Assembly: GCF_005771435.1 (NCBI RefSeq)
Contig: NZ_VANI01000015.1
Coordinates: forward strand, 1-64,000
DNA: 64,000 bases
Direction of reading: 5' to 3'
Origin: Microbulbifer harenosus
Lineage (GTDB): Bacteria; Pseudomonadota; Gammaproteobacteria; Pseudomonadales; Cellvibrionaceae
This document shows positions 1-7,496 of the stretch, piece after piece. Within the stretch, counting starts at the first letter, position 1. Every line of letters starts with the position of its first letter. Made by a program: the position numbers and the translations under genes. The notes beneath the pieces were generated by a model that made no database searches, was not told the origin of the DNA, and saw nothing but the letters and a program-made list of their open reading frames with translations.

Positions 1-26
1 GCTTCTGCAAAGGTCAATTGAGACAT
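1..26 (-). CDS. Transposase N-terminus, partial (IS5-like)
   Basis: The minus-strand ATG at 26 starts a reading frame beginning MSQLTFAEA that continues off the window. IS5-group transposases commonly begin with a very similar string (for example MSHQLTFADS in IS5). Only nine residues are visible, so this is a family-level guess. The DDE catalytic domain would lie outside the window. Confidence 0.35.
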
Positions 27-92
27 TGGATTAGGCACGAAGTTGGGTTTAGGCTATTTTACCGGAATTCGGGGGCTTAATCAGAGGTTCCC
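1..92 (-). mobile_element. Possible left end of an IS5-family insertion sequence (truncated by window edge)
   Basis: On the minus strand an end-like sequence (GGGAACCTCTGATTAAGC, positions 92 to 75) lies about 50 bases before an ATG that opens a transposase-like N-terminus. This spacing fits the short leader of IS5-group elements. The element runs off the window, so neither the second inverted repeat nor a target duplication can be checked. It sits directly beside the end of an attC-like site at 101. The family assignment rests on nine residues and the end-like sequence, so it is tentative. Confidence 0.4.
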
Positions 93-100
93 TTGGTCAT

Positions 101-190
101 CTAACGCCTGTACTTTGGGGTGGCGAAGCGACAGCGTAGTTGTCCTAGACGTATGTATTTTATGCGGCGAACAATATGCGCTTGTTAGTG
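101..190 (-). repeat. attC-like recombination site (site A)
   Basis: Read on the minus strand, the site opens with CTAACAAGCG just after the GFA gene stop and closes with GGCGTTAGAT, matching the integron attC pattern in which a TAAC-type R'' box precedes the hairpin and a GTTRRRY-type R' box (here GTTAGAT) ends it. The interior is imperfectly palindromic. Its first part (AACAAGCGCATATTGTTCGCC allowing two changes) recurs in the site at 1678-1764, which supports a shared origin. Confidence 0.65.
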
Positions 191-199
191 ATGGCTGAG

Positions 200-607
200 T
201 TAGGGCTGCTTTTCATATACCGCTACGCCTTCTGGTAAGGAATACCAGTCTTGCTTCTCGCTTATCCAAACATGAGCGGTCGGTTTAATAATGCTGGTAT
301 CTGATAAATTTGAGGGTTTTAACTTGATTTTTCCCGGTTCCTTTGGGTCGAAGTGGTATATTCGATTTCCACACGTTGGACAAAATTTTGCCCCATTTAT
401 ATTGCCGCTATCTGCGACTCTACTCCATTCAGTCATATCGCCCTGAAATTCGACCGTGTCAGTGTCTACAATCGCAGTTATGCTAAACGCGCTTGTTGAT
501 AGTTTTTGACATTCTTTGCAGTGGCACGCTACAACCATCAGAGGATCAGAGAGTAACTGATACGTTACACTTCCGCATTGACACGATCCTTTTATCGGAT
601 ACTTCAT
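200..607 (-). CDS. GFA/CENP-V family zinc-binding protein
   Basis: This 135-residue protein belongs to the GFA (glutathione-dependent formaldehyde-activating enzyme-like) fold. Zinc ligands are visible as C9-x-C11, C28-x-C30-x2-C33 and C76-x2-C79, the arrangement that defines the family. The length is normal for a single-domain member. The substrate is unknown; many GFA proteins are no longer thought to act on formaldehyde. The gene lies alone between two attC-like sites (101-190 and 632-668) and is oriented so that its stop meets the attC, as in an integron cassette. It has no recognisable promoter of its own, which is usual for cassette genes. Confidence 0.85.
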   Translation of the reverse strand: MKYPIKGSCQCGSVTYQLLSDPLMVVACHCKECQKLSTSAFSITAIVDTDTVEFQGDMTEWSRVADSGNINGAKFCPTCGNRIYHFDPKEPGKIKLKPSNLSDTSIIKPTAHVWISEKQDWYSLPEGVAVYEKQP

Positions 608-631
608 TTATATCTCCGAATTTCTGTCTAT

Positions 632-668
632 CGCTAACGCGGCAATCAACCGCGGCTTGACTTGTATG
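632..668 (-). repeat. Short degenerate attC-like site (site B)
   Basis: On the minus strand, ACAAGTCAAGCCGCGG is followed by TTGATTGCCGCGTTAG, forming a small stem (CCGCGG against CCGCG) that ends in GCGTTAG. The R'' box is not well conserved. The site sits between the stop of the reductase gene (679) and the start of the GFA gene (607), exactly where a cassette junction is expected. It is the weakest of the five sites. Confidence 0.4.
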
Positions 669-678
669 GCCACTCTCT

Positions 679-1236
679 CTAATCACTTTTATGCACTACA
701 TAACGTAACTCAGCCATGCCTACCCCCATCTGGCGAACGGAAATGAGCTGTAGTGTTGGGCCCAGAACACGACGGGGAAAAAGTGGTTTCCCTTTACCAA
801 GAGTGGCAGAGCCAATCTGGACAATAACTTCATCCAGCAAGCCAGCGTCATAGAACTGACCAGCCAGATCGCCACCGCCCACAATCCAAATGTTCTTATC
901 CTTAGCGGCGATTCTCATTTCTCTATGAACTTGATGGACATCTCCATTTGCAAAATGGGTATCTGCGCCATCAATCACAGGCAGCTTACGACTAGAGAAT
1001 ATCCATGCAGGTTGGCTGTATGGCCACGGTGAGCCTGTCTCTCTAGCGACCTGATCGGCATTACGTACCATCCATTCATAGGTTGCTGACCCCATAGCCA
1101 AGGCACCTACTTCGGATATGAATTCTGGATAGCTAGAATTGTCAAGATCTCCAAGAGGGAAAAGCCAATCAAGTGAGTCATCTTCCGTCGCGAGAAATCC
1201 GTCAAGACTTGTGGCTGTGTAATATTGAGTTTTCAT
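679..1236 (-). CDS. Dihydrofolate reductase-like / RibD C-terminal family protein
   Basis: This 185-residue protein belongs to the RibD-C/DHFR superfamily, NADPH-dependent reductases. Visible signatures are the opening beta-strand with TATSLDGFLA, the MGSATYEWM segment, and the nucleotide-binding IWIVGGGDLAGQFYDAGLLDE segment split by the GGG turn. An upstream in-frame ATG at 1272 would add 12 residues, but that start lies inside the attC-like site at 1264-1339, and the ATG at 1236 directly precedes the conserved MKTQYYTATSLDG start of the fold. DHFR-like genes occur often in integrons, but this one is not dfrA or dfrB, and trimethoprim resistance cannot be inferred. Confidence 0.8.
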   Translation of the reverse strand: MKTQYYTATSLDGFLATEDDSLDWLFPLGDLDNSSYPEFISEVGALAMGSATYEWMVRNADQVARETGSPWPYSQPAWIFSSRKLPVIDGADTHFANGDVHQVHREMRIAAKDKNIWIVGGGDLAGQFYDAGLLDEVIVQIGSATLGKGKPLFPRRVLGPTLQLISVRQMGVGMAELRYVVHKSD

Positions 1237-1263
1237 TGTGTGCTTCATCTGCTGATTATATTT

Positions 1264-1339
1264 GCCTAACATTTGGTGAAGGGGTGGGCTTTAGCCCGTC
1301 CCAGTGAGCGAGGCGAACGGTTTGAACATTTTGTCGGGC
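1264..1339 (-). repeat. attC site (site C)
   Basis: On the minus strand the site starts GCCCGACAAAATGTTC and ends CACCAAATGTTAGGC. The terminal GTTAGGC (1270 to 1264) matches the integron R' consensus GTTRRRY exactly. GCCCGAC (1339 to 1333) is the partner R'' box, with five of seven positions complementary. The centre holds a GGGCTAAAGCCC hairpin and a CTGGGAC segment also present in site D. At 76 bp it falls within the usual attC size range. Confidence 0.7.
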
Positions 1340-1356
1340 TTTCTGAGAGAGATAAG

Positions 1357-1668
1357 CTATCGGCTCGGATTTTCTGTTTCGATTCCAGCTCTATTTTTAT
1401 TTCCACATTTCTTACATGTGTAGACGACTTCGAAGTCATTGCTCGATTGTGATGGTTCAGTGCCATATGTCATCAAGGTATCGCACTTAGCGCACCACCT
1501 GGCATTGTTTTTTTTCAGGTAGAAATATGCTGCGCCTACACCGAACAATAAGACGAATACTATGCCAAATGGCTCTTGAAGGTGCCATGCAAAATACGCG
1601 GAATAAATGCAGGCTGCCGCAGCACACACCTCCAAGATATCTTCTTTAAGTACAAAGGTGAACTTCAT
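1357..1668 (-). CDS. Small membrane protein with C-terminal zinc ribbon
   Basis: I do not recognise this 103-residue protein. Residues about 11-30 and 33-51 form two hydrophobic segments, so it is probably an inner-membrane hairpin. The soluble C-terminus carries C59-x2-C62 and C85-x2-C88, a zinc-ribbon-like four-cysteine set. It lies between two attC-like sites in cassette orientation. No enzymatic motif is visible; a membrane-anchored binding or regulatory role is only a guess. Confidence 0.6.
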   Translation of the reverse strand: MKFTFVLKEDILEVCAAAACIYSAYFAWHLQEPFGIVFVLLFGVGAAYFYLKKNNARWCAKCDTLMTYGTEPSQSSNDFEVVYTCKKCGNKNRAGIETENPSR

Positions 1669-1677
1669 AACTTTATT

Positions 1678-1764
1678 AGCCTAAGGCCCTCATTTCGGGG
1701 GCGTAGTGAAGCGCAGTGGACGAGAGGTCCCAGCCCGAAGGGGCGAACAACATGCGTTTGTTAC
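1678..1764 (-). repeat. attC site (site D)
   Basis: On the minus strand it starts GGTAACAAACGCATG directly after the lipoprotein stop and ends GAGGGCCTTAGGC. The R' box is CTTAGGC, one base off the GTTRRRY consensus. The left part is nearly identical to site A, and the CTGGGAC element matches site C. A small CCCCTTCGGG hairpin lies inside. Confidence 0.6.
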
Positions 1765-1765
1765 C

Positions 1766-2266
1766 TCATTCACAAGCATCGGCTATGTCTCCAATTTTCA
1801 GCGCCGCATTTACCCAAGGTGAAACAAAAATGCTATTCGCGTCACCTTCAAAGATAATAGAGCCACTGATTTTGGGGGAGTAATACTCTAATCGGTAGCT
1901 TGGGCCATCCATTATGATGATATCTGAAACAGATGTCTTTTTAATGCCCGCAGCTATCTCAGATGTTTCAAATATAGCCCGCTCTACCTCTTTAATACCT
2001 TCTTCAATTTCTCGACAATCTGATATTTTTACAATGTGCTTATCATGACCATCTTCCGTTGCGTGAGCTATATAGAGCACTCCATCATTTATGTGATAGC
2101 CATACTCAGAACCTTGGGCATACCATGGGCCGGTTAAAAATGTGATACCACCGAAGAAATCTATTTCATTGCCGTATGCGGTCTGTAACACGTCCTTTCT
2201 CATCTCTTGAGAAACACAAGAAGACAATATTGTTGTCAGTAGTAATGTAGATACTCGAATATTCAT
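1766..2266 (-). CDS. Putative lipoprotein of unknown function
   Basis: The 166-residue product begins MNIRVSTLLLTTILSSC, a type II signal peptide with lipobox L-S-S-C17, so the mature protein should be lipid-anchored in the envelope. No known domain is recognised in the remaining 150 residues, which are mixed alpha/beta and rich in charged and aromatic residues. It is flanked by attC-like sites at 1678-1764 and 2273-2379, and its stop directly abuts the first, as for a single-gene cassette. Confidence 0.65.
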   Translation of the reverse strand: MNIRVSTLLLTTILSSCVSQEMRKDVLQTAYGNEIDFFGGITFLTGPWYAQGSEYGYHINDGVLYIAHATEDGHDKHIVKISDCREIEEGIKEVERAIFETSEIAAGIKKTSVSDIIIMDGPSYRLEYYSPKISGSIIFEGDANSIFVSPWVNAALKIGDIADACE

Positions 2267-2272
2267 GAAGGA

Positions 2273-2379
2273 CTAACGCCGCCAGCAGGGCAGCTTACCT
2301 TGTGCTCGATAATGGGGTCGCAGCGAAGCGCGCAAAACGTGCACGAGATAAGCTGTCCTTGGAAGGAGGCCCTGCTAAT
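2273..2379 (-). repeat. attC site, long palindromic form (site E)
   Basis: On the minus strand, AGCAGGGC and ACAGCTTATCTCGTGCACG pair with CGAGCACAAGGTAAGCTG and CCCTGCT further along, giving a long imperfect stem typical of extended attC sites. The site ends GGCGGCGTTAGTC, a good R' box. The R'' end (CATTAGC) is degenerate. It follows the response-regulator stop and precedes the lipoprotein start. Confidence 0.6.
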
Positions 2380-2390
2380 GTAAGATGATT

Positions 2391-3131
2391 CTATTCTTCA
2401 TTCGTCGATTTCAGTGATAGCGCGGGATATGCACTCAACTCGCGATCTTCAGCTTCCAGCATATTATTAAAATCATCTTCGGTAAGTAGAGTCTGTGGCA
2501 ACAGATTGCTACTCTCTTTGAAAAGATGGCATAACGTTGGTTTGTCTTCGTCTCGGTTAAGAAACGTAGTAAGCAGCTGGCCCTTTACGTTAAAATCATG
2601 GGAAATTTTATTTATAGTATTTTTGTGCACAATCAATGCTCGATTGGGGTTTTCGAACAAAACCATTTTGCACAAGTTTTTTCTTGCAAGCTCTCTTAGT
2701 TCTTCAGCTTGTTGCTTGTCCACTGGCATCACCTCTTTCACACCGAAACTGCTTGACTTGGTTATGAGTCTATATGACTTTACTGACAACTTCTTGATTC
2801 TATCGAACAATTCATTTAACGAACACGGTTTTTTAGCGAAATCATCCACTCCTGCTGCAAAGCATGCTTCTCTGTGGGATTCATTGGCTGTTAACGCCAG
2901 TATAGGAAAGTAGCTGCTGATTTTTCTTATTACTCTCGTGGCTTCAATACCGCTCATCTCTGGCATATTGACATCCATAAGGCAGCAATCGTATTTACCT
3001 TGATTTTTCCTGGCAAAATCTACGGCCTGCTTTCCATTTGATGCCATATCAAATTTGAATCCAAAGCTTTTCATGGCCATTCGATGAGCCACTTGGATCA
3101 TCTGATCGTCTTCTGCAATTAGAATATTCAC
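2391..3131 (-). CDS. Response regulator with unrecognised C-terminal domain
   Basis: The product has 246 residues. Residues 1-120 form a CheY-like receiver with acidic residues E7, D8 and D9, phospho-acceptor D53 (LMDVNMPEMSG), T81 and K101 (KKP). The C-terminal half, from about residue 130, matches no output domain I know and is lysine- and asparagine-rich, with no HTH or GGDEF/EAL motif. No histidine kinase is nearby. The gene is followed by attC site E, so it may be a cassette gene, which would be unusual for a signalling protein. It is AT-rich relative to the core genes. Confidence 0.8.
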   Translation of the reverse strand: MNILIAEDDQMIQVAHRMAMKSFGFKFDMASNGKQAVDFARKNQGKYDCCLMDVNMPEMSGIEATRVIRKISSYFPILALTANESHREACFAAGVDDFAKKPCSLNELFDRIKKLSVKSYRLITKSSSFGVKEVMPVDKQQAEELRELARKNLCKMVLFENPNRALIVHKNTINKISHDFNVKGQLLTTFLNRDEDKPTLCHLFKESSNLLPQTLLTEDDFNNMLEAEDRELSAYPALSLKSTNEE

Positions 3132-3395
3132 TCCTTGCTCCTTTTCTCCGTCAGATAATGGTCAGCTGGAAGTGATCAAGAATGCATCGTTCACAGTGCT
3201 TCCCAAAATATGTGATATTCATTTGTTGGCGAAGAGAAACCCTAAGATGACATTTACACTACCCGCTGTAATGAAAAGTTGAACTTCTGGACGATCTAGA
3301 CCAGGTCCTTCCGTGGTTCCAAGATATTTTAATGCTTTAAATTGCCCGGGTTTCTCGTTTGGTTGGGCGTGAATAATCCATGTTGGCTGATAGAT

Positions 3396-3788
3396 TTATT
3401 TCACGCGATAGATTGCGCAGAGCTTGTTTCCATCAGGATCGCGAACGTAGGCAAGATACATTGCACCCAAGCTGCTCTCGCGCAGGCCTGGCGGTTCTTC
3501 AACCGTCTGCCCGCCATGTGCAACCGCTGTATCATGAAATTCTTGAACTTGTTCGGGTGAGTTACATTTGAAGGCAATAGTACCTCCATTTGCGGGAGCT
3601 GCCTCTTTGCCATCTATTGGCTCTGTGACACAGAAGGTGTTGCCATCGTGGCGATAGAAGAGCCGGATATGGCCTGAGCCTGCTTTGTTGCGCAGTGGTT
3701 CACCTACTCCGAGTGTGCCAAGTACGGCATCGTAGAAATTCTTCGAACGTTCAATATCGTTCGAACCTACCATGATGTGATTAAACAT
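3396..3788 (-). CDS. VOC family (glyoxalase/bleomycin-resistance-like) protein
   Basis: The 130-residue product has the vicinal-oxygen-chelate fold: N-terminal FNHIMVGSNDIERSKNFYDA, which supplies the first metal ligand H4, and C-terminal YVRDPDGNKLCAIYR. The length is standard for a single-subunit VOC protein. The substrate is not predictable; lactoylglutathione-lyase-like and antibiotic-binding relatives look alike at this level. Downstream, GCCCAAC at 3368-3362 on the minus strand matches an attC R'' box, but its partner is unclear, so membership in the cassette array is uncertain. Confidence 0.8.
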   Translation of the reverse strand: MFNHIMVGSNDIERSKNFYDAVLGTLGVGEPLRNKAGSGHIRLFYRHDGNTFCVTEPIDGKEAAPANGGTIAFKCNSPEQVQEFHDTAVAHGGQTVEEPPGLRESSLGAMYLAYVRDPDGNKLCAIYRVK

Positions 3789-3839
3789 AGCTTGTATCCT
3801 GTATCAGTTGAATTTTCTTTCGCTATTATATGGCATCGC

Positions 3840-4090
3840 AAGAATCACAGTCCGAGGATATAAAACGTATCATGTCCATATCCTTGGTGTACATTACATC
3901 CATCGCATCGTCACAGTGCAATGTTGGACTTGCTCAGGTCATATTGCTGCACTGGCTCGATCCCACGTTTGTACAGTAGCTCTTTCCTGCTCCCAGTGTG
4001 GATGATTTCCAATTATCATAGGGCTTGCGGACGGATACTTCGTAACTCCGCTCAGGACATCTTCGATCTTGCCTGCAGGGGGCGTTTCAC
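3840..4090 (-). pseudogene. Decayed partial duplicate of the adjacent NYN-domain gene
   Basis: This stretch is a diverged copy of about 4577-4850, the first half of the intact NYN gene at 4174-4890. Blocks such as TCACAGTCCGAGGA, TTGGTGTACAT, CATCCATCGCATCG and CGCTCAGGACATC are shared in the same order. Relative to the intact copy there is a net loss of about 30 bases around 3920-3940, plus many substitutions and frame breaks. The OST-HTH half is absent. A surviving minus-strand frame across part of it encodes PAGKIEDVLSGVTKYP, matching PAGKFEDVLSEVAKYG of the intact protein. Confidence 0.75.
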
Positions 4091-4173: not shown

Positions 4174-4890
4174 TCAGCTCTTTTTGCTTTTTCTTGCATC
4201 CCTGACCAGGTAGGATTTGCCCGGGCCCCACTTCAGTTCGAAAAGGTCGATGGCGCGGAACAGGCTGCTCAGGTTCTTGAAGCCGTAATTGCGGCAGTCG
4301 AAAGAGGTACGGTTGGAGATGTTGGAACCGACGGCGCCGAGTACCGCCCAGCCATCATCGTCTTCGGTGGCCTCAATGGCCTGGCGCAGCAGGGTAATCA
4401 GTTTGGTATCCGATTTGATGTTCTTGGGCTTTTCACCGTTGTCTTCCTTGACCACGTCTGATTTGTCGAGGAACAGGAACTTGGAGCAGGCATTCACGAA
4501 CGGCGGCGGTGTCTTGCGCTCGCCAAACCCGAGCACCACCTTGCCCTCCGCCAGGGCCCTGGTCACCATCGGGGTAAAGTCACAGTCCGAGGAGATAAAG
4601 CACATCACGTCGATGTCTTTGGTGTACATCACATCCATCGCATCGATCACCAGCGCGATATCGGAGGCGTTCTTGCCCTTGGTCAGGTCATACTGCTGCA
4701 CCGGCTGGATAGCGTGTTCGTGCAGCAGTTCTTCCCAGCCCCTGAGTGTGGGTGATTTCCAGTTGCCGTAGGCCTTGCGAATGGTGACCACCCCGTATTT
4801 CGCGACCTCGCTCAGGACATCCTCGAACTTGCCTGCGGGGGCATTGTCCGCGTCGATGAAAAGGGCAATCTTCTGCTTGATTTCGTCCAT
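4174..4890 (-). CDS. NYN (PIN-like) nuclease-fold protein with C-terminal OST-HTH/LOTUS domain
   Basis: The product has 238 residues. The N-terminal NYN domain shows the PIN-like acidic set: FIDADN (D13, D15), the ASDIALVIDAMD segment, and ISSDCDFTPMV. These domains typically cleave RNA. From about residue 160 the protein has an OST-HTH-like RNA-binding domain (LITLLRQAIEATEDDDGWA, then LGAVGSNI and LSSLFRAIDLFEL). An ATG at 4935 would add 15 residues; the ATG at 4890 immediately precedes the conserved KIALFIDADN and is preferred. The TIR-STAND gene ends 68 bases upstream on the same strand, so co-transcription is possible. A decayed copy lies downstream. NYN/OST-HTH proteins are common chromosomal genes, so a defence role is not established. 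Confidence 0.85.
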   Translation of the reverse strand: MDEIKQKIALFIDADNAPAGKFEDVLSEVAKYGVVTIRKAYGNWKSPTLRGWEELLHEHAIQPVQQYDLTKGKNASDIALVIDAMDVMYTKDIDVMCFISSDCDFTPMVTRALAEGKVVLGFGERKTPPPFVNACSKFLFLDKSDVVKEDNGEKPKNIKSDTKLITLLRQAIEATEDDDGWAVLGAVGSNISNRTSFDCRNYGFKNLSSLFRAIDLFELKWGPGKSYLVRDARKSKKS

Positions 4891-4958
4891 CTTAAATCCA
4901 AGGGTATATTGAATTGTGGGAGGTCGGTGCGTCAAATCTTTACTCTGATACCGATTTT

Positions 4959-7496
4959 CTAACCTTTTCCTCGCTTTCTTTGGTCCATGAGCCTTTGTCC
5001 TTGAACAGAAATCCCAAGCCTTTCGGATAATTGTTGCTTTGTTTTATAGTCTACGGGGAACATGTAGGTGTGCTGAATCACCATTTCCTTCAAGATGCGT
5101 TTACATACAGGGTTGTCCTTTAGCTTCTCCGCTGTGCTTTCGATACTTTCTGTTTTTAGGGTTTTATTAAACTGTAGTTCGATTGCCTGCCTTATTAAAT
5201 TGTATGCAGGGGTTTTGGTATCTGTTTCCAGTGCTGAATAGATTTCAAGCGCTTCCCGGGAACCAATTGATGCACCTATTTTTTTGATTACGCCATTTAT
5301 TACGCCATATGTTAGATGTAAATATGCGTGCTCTGCGTGCCTTTCGATTTCCTTGTCTGATAAGTCTGGCTTATCCGTTAGATAGTTAGCTATTATTTTC
5401 ACAACTTCTTTTTTTGATGATTCAGAAATTTTTATGAAATACTCTAAAAAACGTAGCCCAGTTGACGTTCCAGATTTAGCCAGATCATAAATCACGTTTC
5501 TCTTCAGTGAAGAGTGGCGATTCCGGATAATCTGGCCGGCTATTTCCATACCTTTAAAAGTTTTGTTTATGTTCGCTAAAATGTCGTCGGCTTCTGTTAT
5601 TTCGTCTTGGCTTTTTCTTTCTATTTCATCAAGTTTTCTGTTGTGTTCATCGCGTTCTTTTTGTATTTCTCGTTGTTCGATAATCAATTCTGGTATTTGC
5701 TTTATGAAATCATTCATAAAGCTCAATTGGTTTTTATCGAGAGTAGCCTTTTGGTTCTTTTCAAAAAGAGATTCCAAAACATTATTTATTTTGTTTAGAA
5801 CCCATGAGTCTTTAGTGTGATGGGTAATAAAGATAAGGATGTTCGCATAATCTTCCCTGTGTAGTGACTCAAGCAGGGTTTCTACAGCTTCTCTAGTTTT
5901 TTGGTTGTCAGCGTAAGATTCAGCTATTTTCTTTGCGACAAAAAAATAGTAAATATATGGATATTTAAATCCTATGGTTGCTCGTTTTTGGCAAAGAATT
6001 GAGTGGTCAGTAAGTTTTTTTGTTACTTCTCTCTGGTCTACAGGAAGGAATTCTTCACAATATCTTTCAAAAAAGGATTTCAATTCCGAATCATTCGGGT
6101 CTGAATCATTTGTAAAAATCAACCATGATAGCTCCGTTAAAACGTTTAAGTACTTATCGAAGTCTAACTTGTTGATTTTTGCTTTATCGAAAGATTGGTA
6201 GATTAATTGTTGATAGCAATGTCCATATGATGTCAATTCAAGATTGAGGCCGCTATTTGCTTCGAACATTTGTAGAAGCATTAGTACATAAATCGGCTTT
6301 GGGGGGACAATATTTCTTTTGATTACGGTGTCTAACCTGGACTTTAGCTCATCACAGTTTGAGTAGAGCTCAAATTCGTCGATGTTCTCCTCTTCTCCCA
6401 GGGAAATCCATTTTTGGACAATTTCTTCTCTTTTTATGTTTCCTAGCCCAAGTAATTCGCAGGTCATGTAGTTGTCGAACGCTGGAATGTCGTTGGCAAC
6501 ATATGAAAATGATGTATGACAAGTAAACAAAATAAAACCAAAGCTTTCGCTCAAGTTTTTTATAAAGATGTTTCTAAATTTTGCGTTTAAAGAGATATCA
6601 TCTATGTTGTCTATGAGGACCGCTGTATTTTTAGCTGACAAAAAAGTTTCGTAGTCTAGATTTTGATACTGCCGTTCAATCTCTGGGCGTAAGTTTTCGT
6701 CAATCTTTGAAGTCTTGATGTTATTGGCGTCAAGATATATTGGGATATAACTCTCTTTAAGTAGCTCTATGAAGAGGTGCTTTAATAGTGAGGTCTTTCC
6801 TTGCTGTTCTTCCCCGAATATGATTTTGTGACTTGGGGACTTTGCTAGCTCTGATGTACTTTTTATTTTTATTGGGTCATCGTCATTATCACTTTCTAGT
6901 TCCATGTCTGGAGCCACATAAATATCAGAAAGCGTGATTTTGTTTACTTTTCTATGTGTTAGCTTAATTTCTGTGTCGTTAGTCCACTCCAAAATGAATG
7001 GGGTGGGTGCTATTTTGTCGTTTGAAAGGGCTTTTGGTTGAATGCTTTTTTGTGATTTGAAATCGGATATATGTTGCTTTAACCCACTAATAGCATCTAC
7101 CCAAGCGGCATCTTCGTTTTCCCACTCTGTAATTGCTTTTGCGTCTTTTGGCACGGCTTGCAGTTTCGATAGTCCACTATCGTGCCAGTGGCATGGGCGT
7201 ACAATAATTGAAATAACAGTTGCTTCTTTGTTTTCGTACTTCTTTAGTGCGCGAGAAACCTCGATATCCTGACAGTAGGAGGACGCTAAAAAGCTAGAGC
7301 TGACTAGAAATATTATTATATCTGCGGCCTCAAGGTTGGAATCAATTGATCCCGCCCACTCCTCGCCGGGAGTGATTTTCCGGTCGTGCCAGACTGAGAT
7401 GTGACCATTTCGTTGGAGTAACGATAGATGTTCTTCAAGCGTTTCGCGATGATGTTCGTCTTTGTGGGAATAGCTTATGAATACTTTTTTTGACAT
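4959..7496 (-). CDS. TIR domain - STAND/NACHT-like NTPase, candidate anti-phage NLR-like protein
   Basis: The product has 845 residues. Residues 1-145 form a TIR domain (KKVFISYSHKDEHH, then SSFLASSYCQDIEVSRAL) whose E79 sits where bacterial NADase TIRs have the catalytic glutamate. A P-loop follows with Walker A G228-E-E-Q-Q-G-K-T235 and a Walker B-like segment at 292-300 (AVLIDNIDD). The remainder is helical, with a charged coiled-coil-like stretch around 595-635 and then a helical-repeat-like C-terminus that would act as sensor. Known TIR-STAND proteins sense infection and deplete NAD. Two sampled 60-base lines inside the gene are 37% GC against 68% for one in purF, pointing to horizontal acquisition. 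A defence role is inference. Confidence 0.8.
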   Translation of the reverse strand: MSKKVFISYSHKDEHHRETLEEHLSLLQRNGHISVWHDRKITPGEEWAGSIDSNLEAADIIIFLVSSSFLASSYCQDIEVSRALKKYENKEATVISIIVRPCHWHDSGLSKLQAVPKDAKAITEWENEDAAWVDAISGLKQHISDFKSQKSIQPKALSNDKIAPTPFILEWTNDTEIKLTHRKVNKITLSDIYVAPDMELESDNDDDPIKIKSTSELAKSPSHKIIFGEEQQGKTSLLKHLFIELLKESYIPIYLDANNIKTSKIDENLRPEIERQYQNLDYETFLSAKNTAVLIDNIDDISLNAKFRNIFIKNLSESFGFILFTCHTSFSYVANDIPAFDNYMTCELLGLGNIKREEIVQKWISLGEEENIDEFELYSNCDELKSRLDTVIKRNIVPPKPIYVLMLLQMFEANSGLNLELTSYGHCYQQLIYQSFDKAKINKLDFDKYLNVLTELSWLIFTNDSDPNDSELKSFFERYCEEFLPVDQREVTKKLTDHSILCQKRATIGFKYPYIYYFFVAKKIAESYADNQKTREAVETLLESLHREDYANILIFITHHTKDSWVLNKINNVLESLFEKNQKATLDKNQLSFMNDFIKQIPELIIEQREIQKERDEHNRKLDEIERKSQDEITEADDILANINKTFKGMEIAGQIIRNRHSSLKRNVIYDLAKSGTSTGLRFLEYFIKISESSKKEVVKIIANYLTDKPDLSDKEIERHAEHAYLHLTYGVINGVIKKIGASIGSREALEIYSALETDTKTPAYNLIRQAIELQFNKTLKTESIESTAEKLKDNPVCKRILKEMVIQHTYMFPVDYKTKQQLSERLGISVQGQRLMDQRKRGKG

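Follow-up and report, generated by a model that had tools for sequence, protein, structure and literature searches.

A worn, integrase-less cassette array in Microbulbifer harenosus and a possible distributed integron in the genus

We examined a gene cassette array at the left end of a 64,000-nucleotide stretch of the Microbulbifer harenosus genome (contig NZ_VANI01000015.1, here C6, positions 1 to 64,000), and refer to the whole stretch as the window. The assembly amounts to 4.67 Mb in 67 contigs, and since the window opens at base 1 of C6, the array is cut on the left. Five minus-strand open reading frames (ORFs) interleave with five attC-like elements, named A to E from left to right, just as the initial annotation, made from the letters alone, had described five same-strand genes alternating with five palindromes. 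The array is laid out as follows:

1..98, no strand assigned: left end of the contig, with what appears to be the start of a further, cut-off cassette past site A (judged from the GCGTTAGATGACC junction in the minus-strand reading)
99..190, minus: attC A, both core boxes intact (covariance model 8.7 bits, arm score 19.4)
200..607, minus: cassette gene of the GFA family (glutathione-dependent formaldehyde-activating enzyme-like; PF04828, E 3.6e-27)
632..670, minus: attC B, 39 nt, one core altered (7.2 bits; weak, mainly positional)
679..1236, minus: cassette gene, RibD C-terminal / dihydrofolate-reductase-like (PF01872, E 7.5e-14)
1264..1339, minus: attC C, heavily decayed (3.9 bits; placed by position and a GTTAGGC junction)
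1357..1668, minus: cassette ORF of 103 aa, no Pfam family
1679..1766, minus: attC D, crossover core CTTAGG in place of GTTAGG (7.1 bits, arm score 19.2)
1766..2266, minus: cassette ORF of 166 aa, no Pfam family
2271..2380, minus: attC E, a clear site (51.7 bits, E 2.2e-12)
2391..3131, minus: response-regulator receiver protein, 246 aa (PF00072, E 2.5e-23)

The array shows a consistent polarity, with one minus-strand ORF per attC and each ORF starting soon after the crossover, although site D has C in place of G as its crossover base. Sites A, D and E each occupy the gap that separates an ORF's stop from the start of the following ORF. The response-regulator gene at 2391-3131 is probably the first remaining cassette gene, with attC E on its 3′ side. 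Two of the five ORFs belong to no Pfam family, in agreement with the cargo of proteins without known function noted earlier. The G+C content is 0.454 at 1-2390 and 0.433 at 2391-3800, versus 0.597 from 7.5 to 64 kb. A tblastn search of the cassette proteins against the loci compared returned weak homologues only, including GFA-family genes at 27-30% identity; two of the GFA-family homologues lie on array contigs C26 and C64 of the same genome.

The five sites were scored with a covariance model (R1) built from 25 attC sites on contigs C3, C14, C17 and C19, with no window sequence. Because the underlying MAFFT alignment divides the outer arms, the structure of R1 is without the outer stem; R1 detects E and the well-preserved sites but underrates short ones, and the two outer arms were therefore also scored on their own. 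Site E stands out with R1 (E 2.2e-12 over the 64 kb, minus strand). When 4.2 kb were scored unfiltered, A (E 0.39), B (E 1.1) and D (E 1.1) ranked directly below E and its opposite-strand shadow, and C came last, 15th of 15 (E 9.5). By the outer-arm score, the highest value elsewhere (59.8 kb, both strands) was 18.3, which A (19.4) and D (19.2) just exceed; B, C and E were absent from its listed matches. The initial annotation asked for at least three sites scoring as attC, a number reached only when the modest A and D are counted with E. Folding of the recombining bottom strand, also proposed at the outset, set one site apart: E folded better than its shuffles (z -2.45, 3 of 200 equally good), but A (z 0.30), B (-0.78), C (0.62) and D (-1.05) did not. 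Three Rfam matches in the first 5 kb (E 1.2, 3.4 and 6.7) were taken as chance.

The two shared stretches reported initially are real, as A and D both match the 18-nt pattern YAACAARCGCATRTTGTT with 0 mismatches (about 22 nt by eye, for some 20 bases claimed) and GTCCCAG is present in both C and D. The GTTAG-type core ends hold for A, B, C and E, which retain the GTTA crossover, but not for D, which reads CTTAGG. Both cores are intact in A; D is changed at the crossover, and B, C and E in the other core. Most of the sites are decayed, B and C not being callable as attC from sequence alone and resting on their position. The evidence amounts to one strong attC (E) and two moderate ones (A and D), all on the same strand.

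Given this polarity, attI and intI were expected to the right of the array, and none was found there. The family search located no intI in the 64-kb window, both of its genome-wide matches being on other contigs, and tblastn of these two integrases (from C17 and C21) against the window gave a best E of 0.38; both searches confirm the earlier statement that no integrase is present up to 64 kb. We also looked in the window for an attI-like sequence of the kind that precedes the first cassette of other arrays (hereafter head), for its core, and for Hap, a small protein (about 133 aa) whose gene immediately precedes heads of the hairpin type in several Microbulbifer, including on contig C14; none of them was found. 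An nhmmer profile of 69 heads was silent in the window. On the whole genome the same profile found the heads of C3, C21 and C16 right (E ≤ 0.043) and missed those of C5, C14 and C17, so that its silence in the window weighs little.

The window array therefore has at least two attC sites, cassette polarity and no nearby integrase within 64 kb, as a cluster of attC sites lacking an integrase (CALIN) does. It has neither the intI and attI at the proximal end that make a complete integron nor an attI-like core just before the first cassette, by which an orphan head is recognised. Since E is strong, A and D are moderate, these sites share one strand and lie between ORFs, and no intI occurs in the 64 kb, the array is best read, with support, as a left-cut, decayed cassette array without integrase, i.e. 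a CALIN. As to the other possibility raised initially, a displaced array end, the left limit is the end of the contig and not that of the array. As first given, then, the finding is an ordinary, worn CALIN.

The whole-genome search for intI recommended in the initial annotation returned two integrases, on C17 and C21, with 407.9 and 364.3 bits (cut-off 265); the one on C17 adjoins a GroEL-like gene, as judged by eye. R1 gave at least 131 rows at E ≤ 1 across the genome, opposite-strand shadows included, with 150 of 1868 candidates scored. Most of the listed matches sit close to the end of a contig or on a short contig, which is what one would expect of an assembly broken by attC repeats. Seven proximal starts could be told by strand: C17 and C21 with intI; C16 right, C5 left, C3 left and C14 left without it; and C6 left, which is the window. 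Distal ends are those of C2, C67, C16 left, C12, C64 and C66 (C12 and C64 by match strand only), and several short contigs were not assignable as proximal or distal. A head-like core, recognised in this genome through a looser core and by eye, lies directly before the first cassette at four of the five intI-less starts (C16 right, C5, C3 and C14), the window being the exception. The C16 right array lies behind purL, and its layout is the same as that of the C21 site. By eye, an apparent end of a group II intron reverse transcriptase is located beside cassettes or attC on C5 (L038:1-600), as is an apparent IS110-type transposase on C66 (L050:4800-5500).

Heads without an integrase are common in the genus. 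We described their core by two patterns, TGAATAAA(N)CTGTTA and CGATATAA(A/C)TGTTA, which gave 50 + 11 = 61 matches in 16 complete genomes versus 1 + 0 for the reversed patterns, with matches in 12 of the 16 genomes. Forty-four of the matches are sites left out of the pattern definition; at 39 of these a same-strand attC follows within 3 kb, and 33 have attC without intI. The 1.5 kb upstream of the 44 sites hold an intact intI in 6 cases, a weak same-strand match in one (L218) and no IntI match in 37. The orphan sites (n = 50) lie at least 24 kb from any intI found, at a median of 1.0 Mb, and the number of intI per genome (E ≤ 1e-60) is 1 to 3 in 43 of 48 genomes and none in the other five. Three loci (L189, L207 and L208) show the full attI-like core context with no attC within 3 kb, and are possibly empty or decayed heads.

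Arrays were mapped in three single-contig genomes (G007, G016 and G032; 150 candidates scored per genome, best 150 rows overall). Among the listed matches, G007 has 6 arrays and 1 intI, G016 has 8 and 2, and G032 has 4 and 2; all 13 intI-less arrays start with a head, that of G016 at L172 being recognised by eye. A scan of 120 genomes of the family found the first pattern in 16 of 24 Microbulbifer and in 23 of 96 others. When Microbulbifer is set aside, together with G124 (from another genus; see below), the raw pattern counts are 32 for the first pattern versus 8 for its reverse.

Upstream of the core, heads carry direct repeats or hairpin repeats. A TTGACG-N17-CATTCT element was seen by eye at a few sites, namely the intI-linked sites of C21 and G007, the orphan site of C16 and the purL heads of G005 and G008; array 3 of G007 has TTGACC instead of TTGACG. 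From its place, this element is likely to be a cassette promoter. At the 3′ end of purL an intI-less head was seen in 3 of 30 species and none in the other 27; the loose core matches L235, L242, L248 and L256 in this comparison were judged by eye to be chance.

Several observations, the presence of this element at both intI-linked and orphan sites among them, bear on whether integrases act on heads at a distance. In four orphan heads, about 260 bp can be aligned with the attI region belonging to the second G016 integrase, and several others resemble intI-linked attI over the last 60 nt, hairpin-type heads matching poorly. The best match (ties counted) of 18 of 49 orphan sites is an intI-linked attI of their own genome, versus a permuted mean of 4.0 and a maximum of 14 in 5000 permutations (L187 left out; shared ancestry not removed). 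Cassettes, too, recur in different arrays. The same cassette follows the attI of the C17 integrase and the orphan head of C16, with 97.2% identity over 605 nt from the core to the GTTA of the attC. In G001, heads L180 and L182 have one first cassette (99.8% over 421 nt, from the core), and L184 is alike by eye. In G007, the intI array shares with an orphan array a GTTA-bounded stretch of 363 nt at 100% identity; this stretch does not follow the head immediately.

Integrons are mostly pictured with one integrase, one attI and one array. We propose, at a probability of roughly 0.65 and going by sequence comparison, that the window is a worn, headless CALIN within a distributed integron, in which a few IntI proteins would act in trans on several dispersed orphan attI-like heads. 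Cassettes would integrate at G|TTA of each head. The window array would once have had such a head, its decay coming after the loss; put more broadly, we read it as an array in decay, whether its head has gone or there never was one. As it has no recognisable head, it probably cannot gain new cassettes at its front. For the wider claim, we lean only slightly towards accepting it: that such a distributed integron, each head building its own array, exists in Microbulbifer and in one or more genomes from another genus in its family, that some of its heads are copied to other places on the chromosome in one piece, with Hap either inside the piece or in front of it, and that CALINs like the window are platforms that lost their head, not integrons that lost their integrase. 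That IntI recombines these heads in trans is what we infer from the shared cassettes and the attI likeness.

A number of points weigh against this proposal. At the window itself, the scores of sites B and C are marginal, and of the five sites E alone folds better than shuffles. Exact core matches are wanting in 4 of the 16 complete genomes (G028, G029, G034 and G045), the first pattern has 0 matches in 8 of 24 Microbulbifer genomes, the present one included, and attC is absent within 3 kb downstream of 5 of the 44 core matches. For 31 of the 49 orphan sites the best match is not an attI of the same genome, and shared ancestry alone could yield part of the own-genome signal. A shared first cassette was found at two locus pairs only, among the loci compared, and the one shared by L180 and L182 ends at CTTTA, not GTTA. 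Headed arrays also persist in two genomes, G024 and G042, in which no intI was matched at E ≤ 1e-60. Finally, the head at L304 adjoins an N-terminal remnant of intI, and the L163 head of G007 (array 3) has a flanking gene in common with the C21 intI locus (79% over 329 nt); some heads did lose an adjacent intI. In G024 and G042, 5 of 5 and 3 of 3 fetched core matches, respectively, have attC downstream, G042 having 5 matches in total.

For the window alone, a doubtful alternative is that it is a rearranged fragment of a headed or intI-bearing array, displaced through recombination between attC repeats, with its head elsewhere in the genome. The contig end that cuts the array, the attC sites at many contig ends of the assembly and the decayed or weak attC also present at distal ends (e.g. 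C2 and C16 left) would fit such a fragment. The chromosomal flank, with the NYN gene, the TIR gene and nrdB, is however on the proximal side in the window, whereas distal fragments have the other side.

It is unlikely that the dispersed arrays are plain relics, each once a complete integron whose intI was deleted locus by locus, leaving heads as fossils without use in trans. The intI remnant at L304, the flanking gene common to L163 and C21, and the headed arrays of G024 and G042, as described above, all speak for this. Against it stand the 37 of 44 core matches without any IntI match in the 1.5 kb upstream (L218 weak, 6 intact), the cassettes, 97-100% identical, that are common to intI-linked and orphan arrays, and the 11 near-identical dispersed heads of G124, which look like copying.

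The view that the dispersed arrays, with the window among them, arose by off-target insertion at attG-type sites, heads being no more than sequences that IntI happens to accept, is very improbable: such insertion is reported to place cassettes at broadly distributed loci (in the excerpts of PMC12444791 and PMC12901181) and the window array has no recognisable head, but attG secondary sites are said to diverge from attI and attC in sequence and structure (excerpt of PMC12901181), whereas the attI region next to a G016 integrase can be aligned with four orphan heads for about 260 bp and several others resemble intI-linked attI in their last 60 nt, the core gave 61 matches versus 1 reversed, and 39 of the 44 new sites head arrays. 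Hairpin-type heads, which match intI-linked attI poorly, may nevertheless be of the attG kind.

The origin of the heads, as far as their sequences tell, bears traces of both intI loss and copying. In G124, which is of another genus in the same family, 12 dispersed core matches (L286-L297) all have attC downstream, and none of the 12 has an IntI match within 1.5 kb upstream. Eleven of the 12 are alike (ten at 94-97% identity to L286 over 133-312 bp), L295 showing 81% over 69 bp, and the set looks as if copied as a unit. Several of these heads have the same left end, AAAAATAATCGGACACCC. At L292 an attC is found at 238-354, about 1.1 kb upstream of the head, which may thus sit inside an older array.

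The C-terminal part of Hap is recognisable, as remnants, at 8 of the 12 G124 heads. In a survey that covered heads only, Hap occurred at 7 of 69, all of the hairpin kind, with 73-102 nt between the end of the match and the core. Hap loci are L032:691-1092, L060:4746-5147, L166, L174, L176, L179, L197, L200, L298 and L297, with further ones at L146 and L160, where the arrays were not checked. Twelve longer versions were aligned over 133 columns. No relatives were found in IMG/VR contigs, PLSDB plasmids or PHROGs; the best match in the PDB had E 0.61, and nothing in Pfam was above the cut-off for four of the proteins. A single-sequence structure prediction had a mean predicted local distance difference test score of 47.5 and was not used.

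Compared with described systems, the window array resembles CALINs, defined by at least two attC sites (excerpt of PMC12444791), in its same-strand attC cassettes with no intI nearby. A functional IntI is reported to be able to mobilise the cassettes of CALINs in trans (excerpts of PMC12444791 and PMC11389934). The window differs in that its attC are mostly decayed, and other arrays of the genus differ in having attI-like heads, which the same two excerpts do not describe for CALINs. In Xanthomonas, CALINs occupy conserved, recurring loci other than ilvD; as here, intI is at one locus and CALINs at other recurring ones, but, unlike here, the excerpt of PMC12444791 describes no attI-like heads. 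The marine Saccharophagus degradans 2-40, grouped with Microbulbifer in the excerpt of PMC2386152, was reported in 2008 to have a core integron and five satellite sites, i.e. dispersed same-strand arrays with a common repeat. The minimal delta-attI2 core of class 2 integrons, AATAAAATGTTRRRY (excerpt of PMC12901181), resembles the head cores; this likeness is at the level of sequence, and Microbulbifer heads differ by upstream repeats of their own.

Sedentary chromosomal integrons are alike in their mostly unknown genes, similar attC sites and an intI with an attI-like site (here C17 and C21), from which the several separate arrays per chromosome with few intI set the present genomes apart. 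We found no description of dispersed intI-less attI heads in the titles and abstract openings that our searches of open-licence PMC papers listed, and orphan attI heads as the usual start of intI-less arrays in much of a genus are new to us and testable. If a few integrases do load many docking sites, a chromosome would offer several front-of-array, potentially expressed positions. CALINs would then gain a concrete origin and fate, being either headed and still loadable or headless and decaying like the window. The origin of integrase-less cassette clusters becomes directly testable in non-pathogenic marine bacteria, for which the core pattern and a candidate accessory gene (hap) are provided.

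To the right of the array, between the response-regulator gene and nrdB, the window holds these further features:

3396..3788, minus: glyoxalase-like gene (PF00903, E 4e-11), with no credible attC adjoining
3845..4081, minus: degenerate partial copy of the neighbouring NYN gene (65-70% identity, at 8 of 14 relatives' loci)
4174..4935, minus: NYN + OST-HTH gene flanking the array (PF01936, PF12872)

The identity of the partial copy refers to the relatives' NYN gene, outside the match of the full copy, in 14 loci compared. A gene for a TIR + STAND-NTPase protein of 845 aa (4959-7496; G+C 0.378), which looks defence-type, lies between nrdB and the NYN gene. Thus the TIR-STAND gene, the NYN gene, its broken copy, the glyoxalase gene and the response-regulator gene separate nrdB from the window array. 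In G016, a headed array (L172, by eye) begins right after the nrdB terminator, and the window array is on the same side of nrdB. A corresponding head just after nrdB in the window was considered and rejected, as in the window it is the TIR gene that comes after this terminator.

The closest named relatives of the NYN gene are in Microbulbifer species (92-95% protein identity). In M. marinus an attC (L060:9862-9977) lies directly before the NYN gene, which there is probably one of the late cassettes in an array with Hap at its head. The first cassette of that array (L060:5264-5635) encodes, by eye, a near copy of a C19 cassette protein (L033:4818-5189). In a Porticoccaceae metagenome-assembled genome (L063), the NYN gene stands behind a weaker attC of 25.8 bits.

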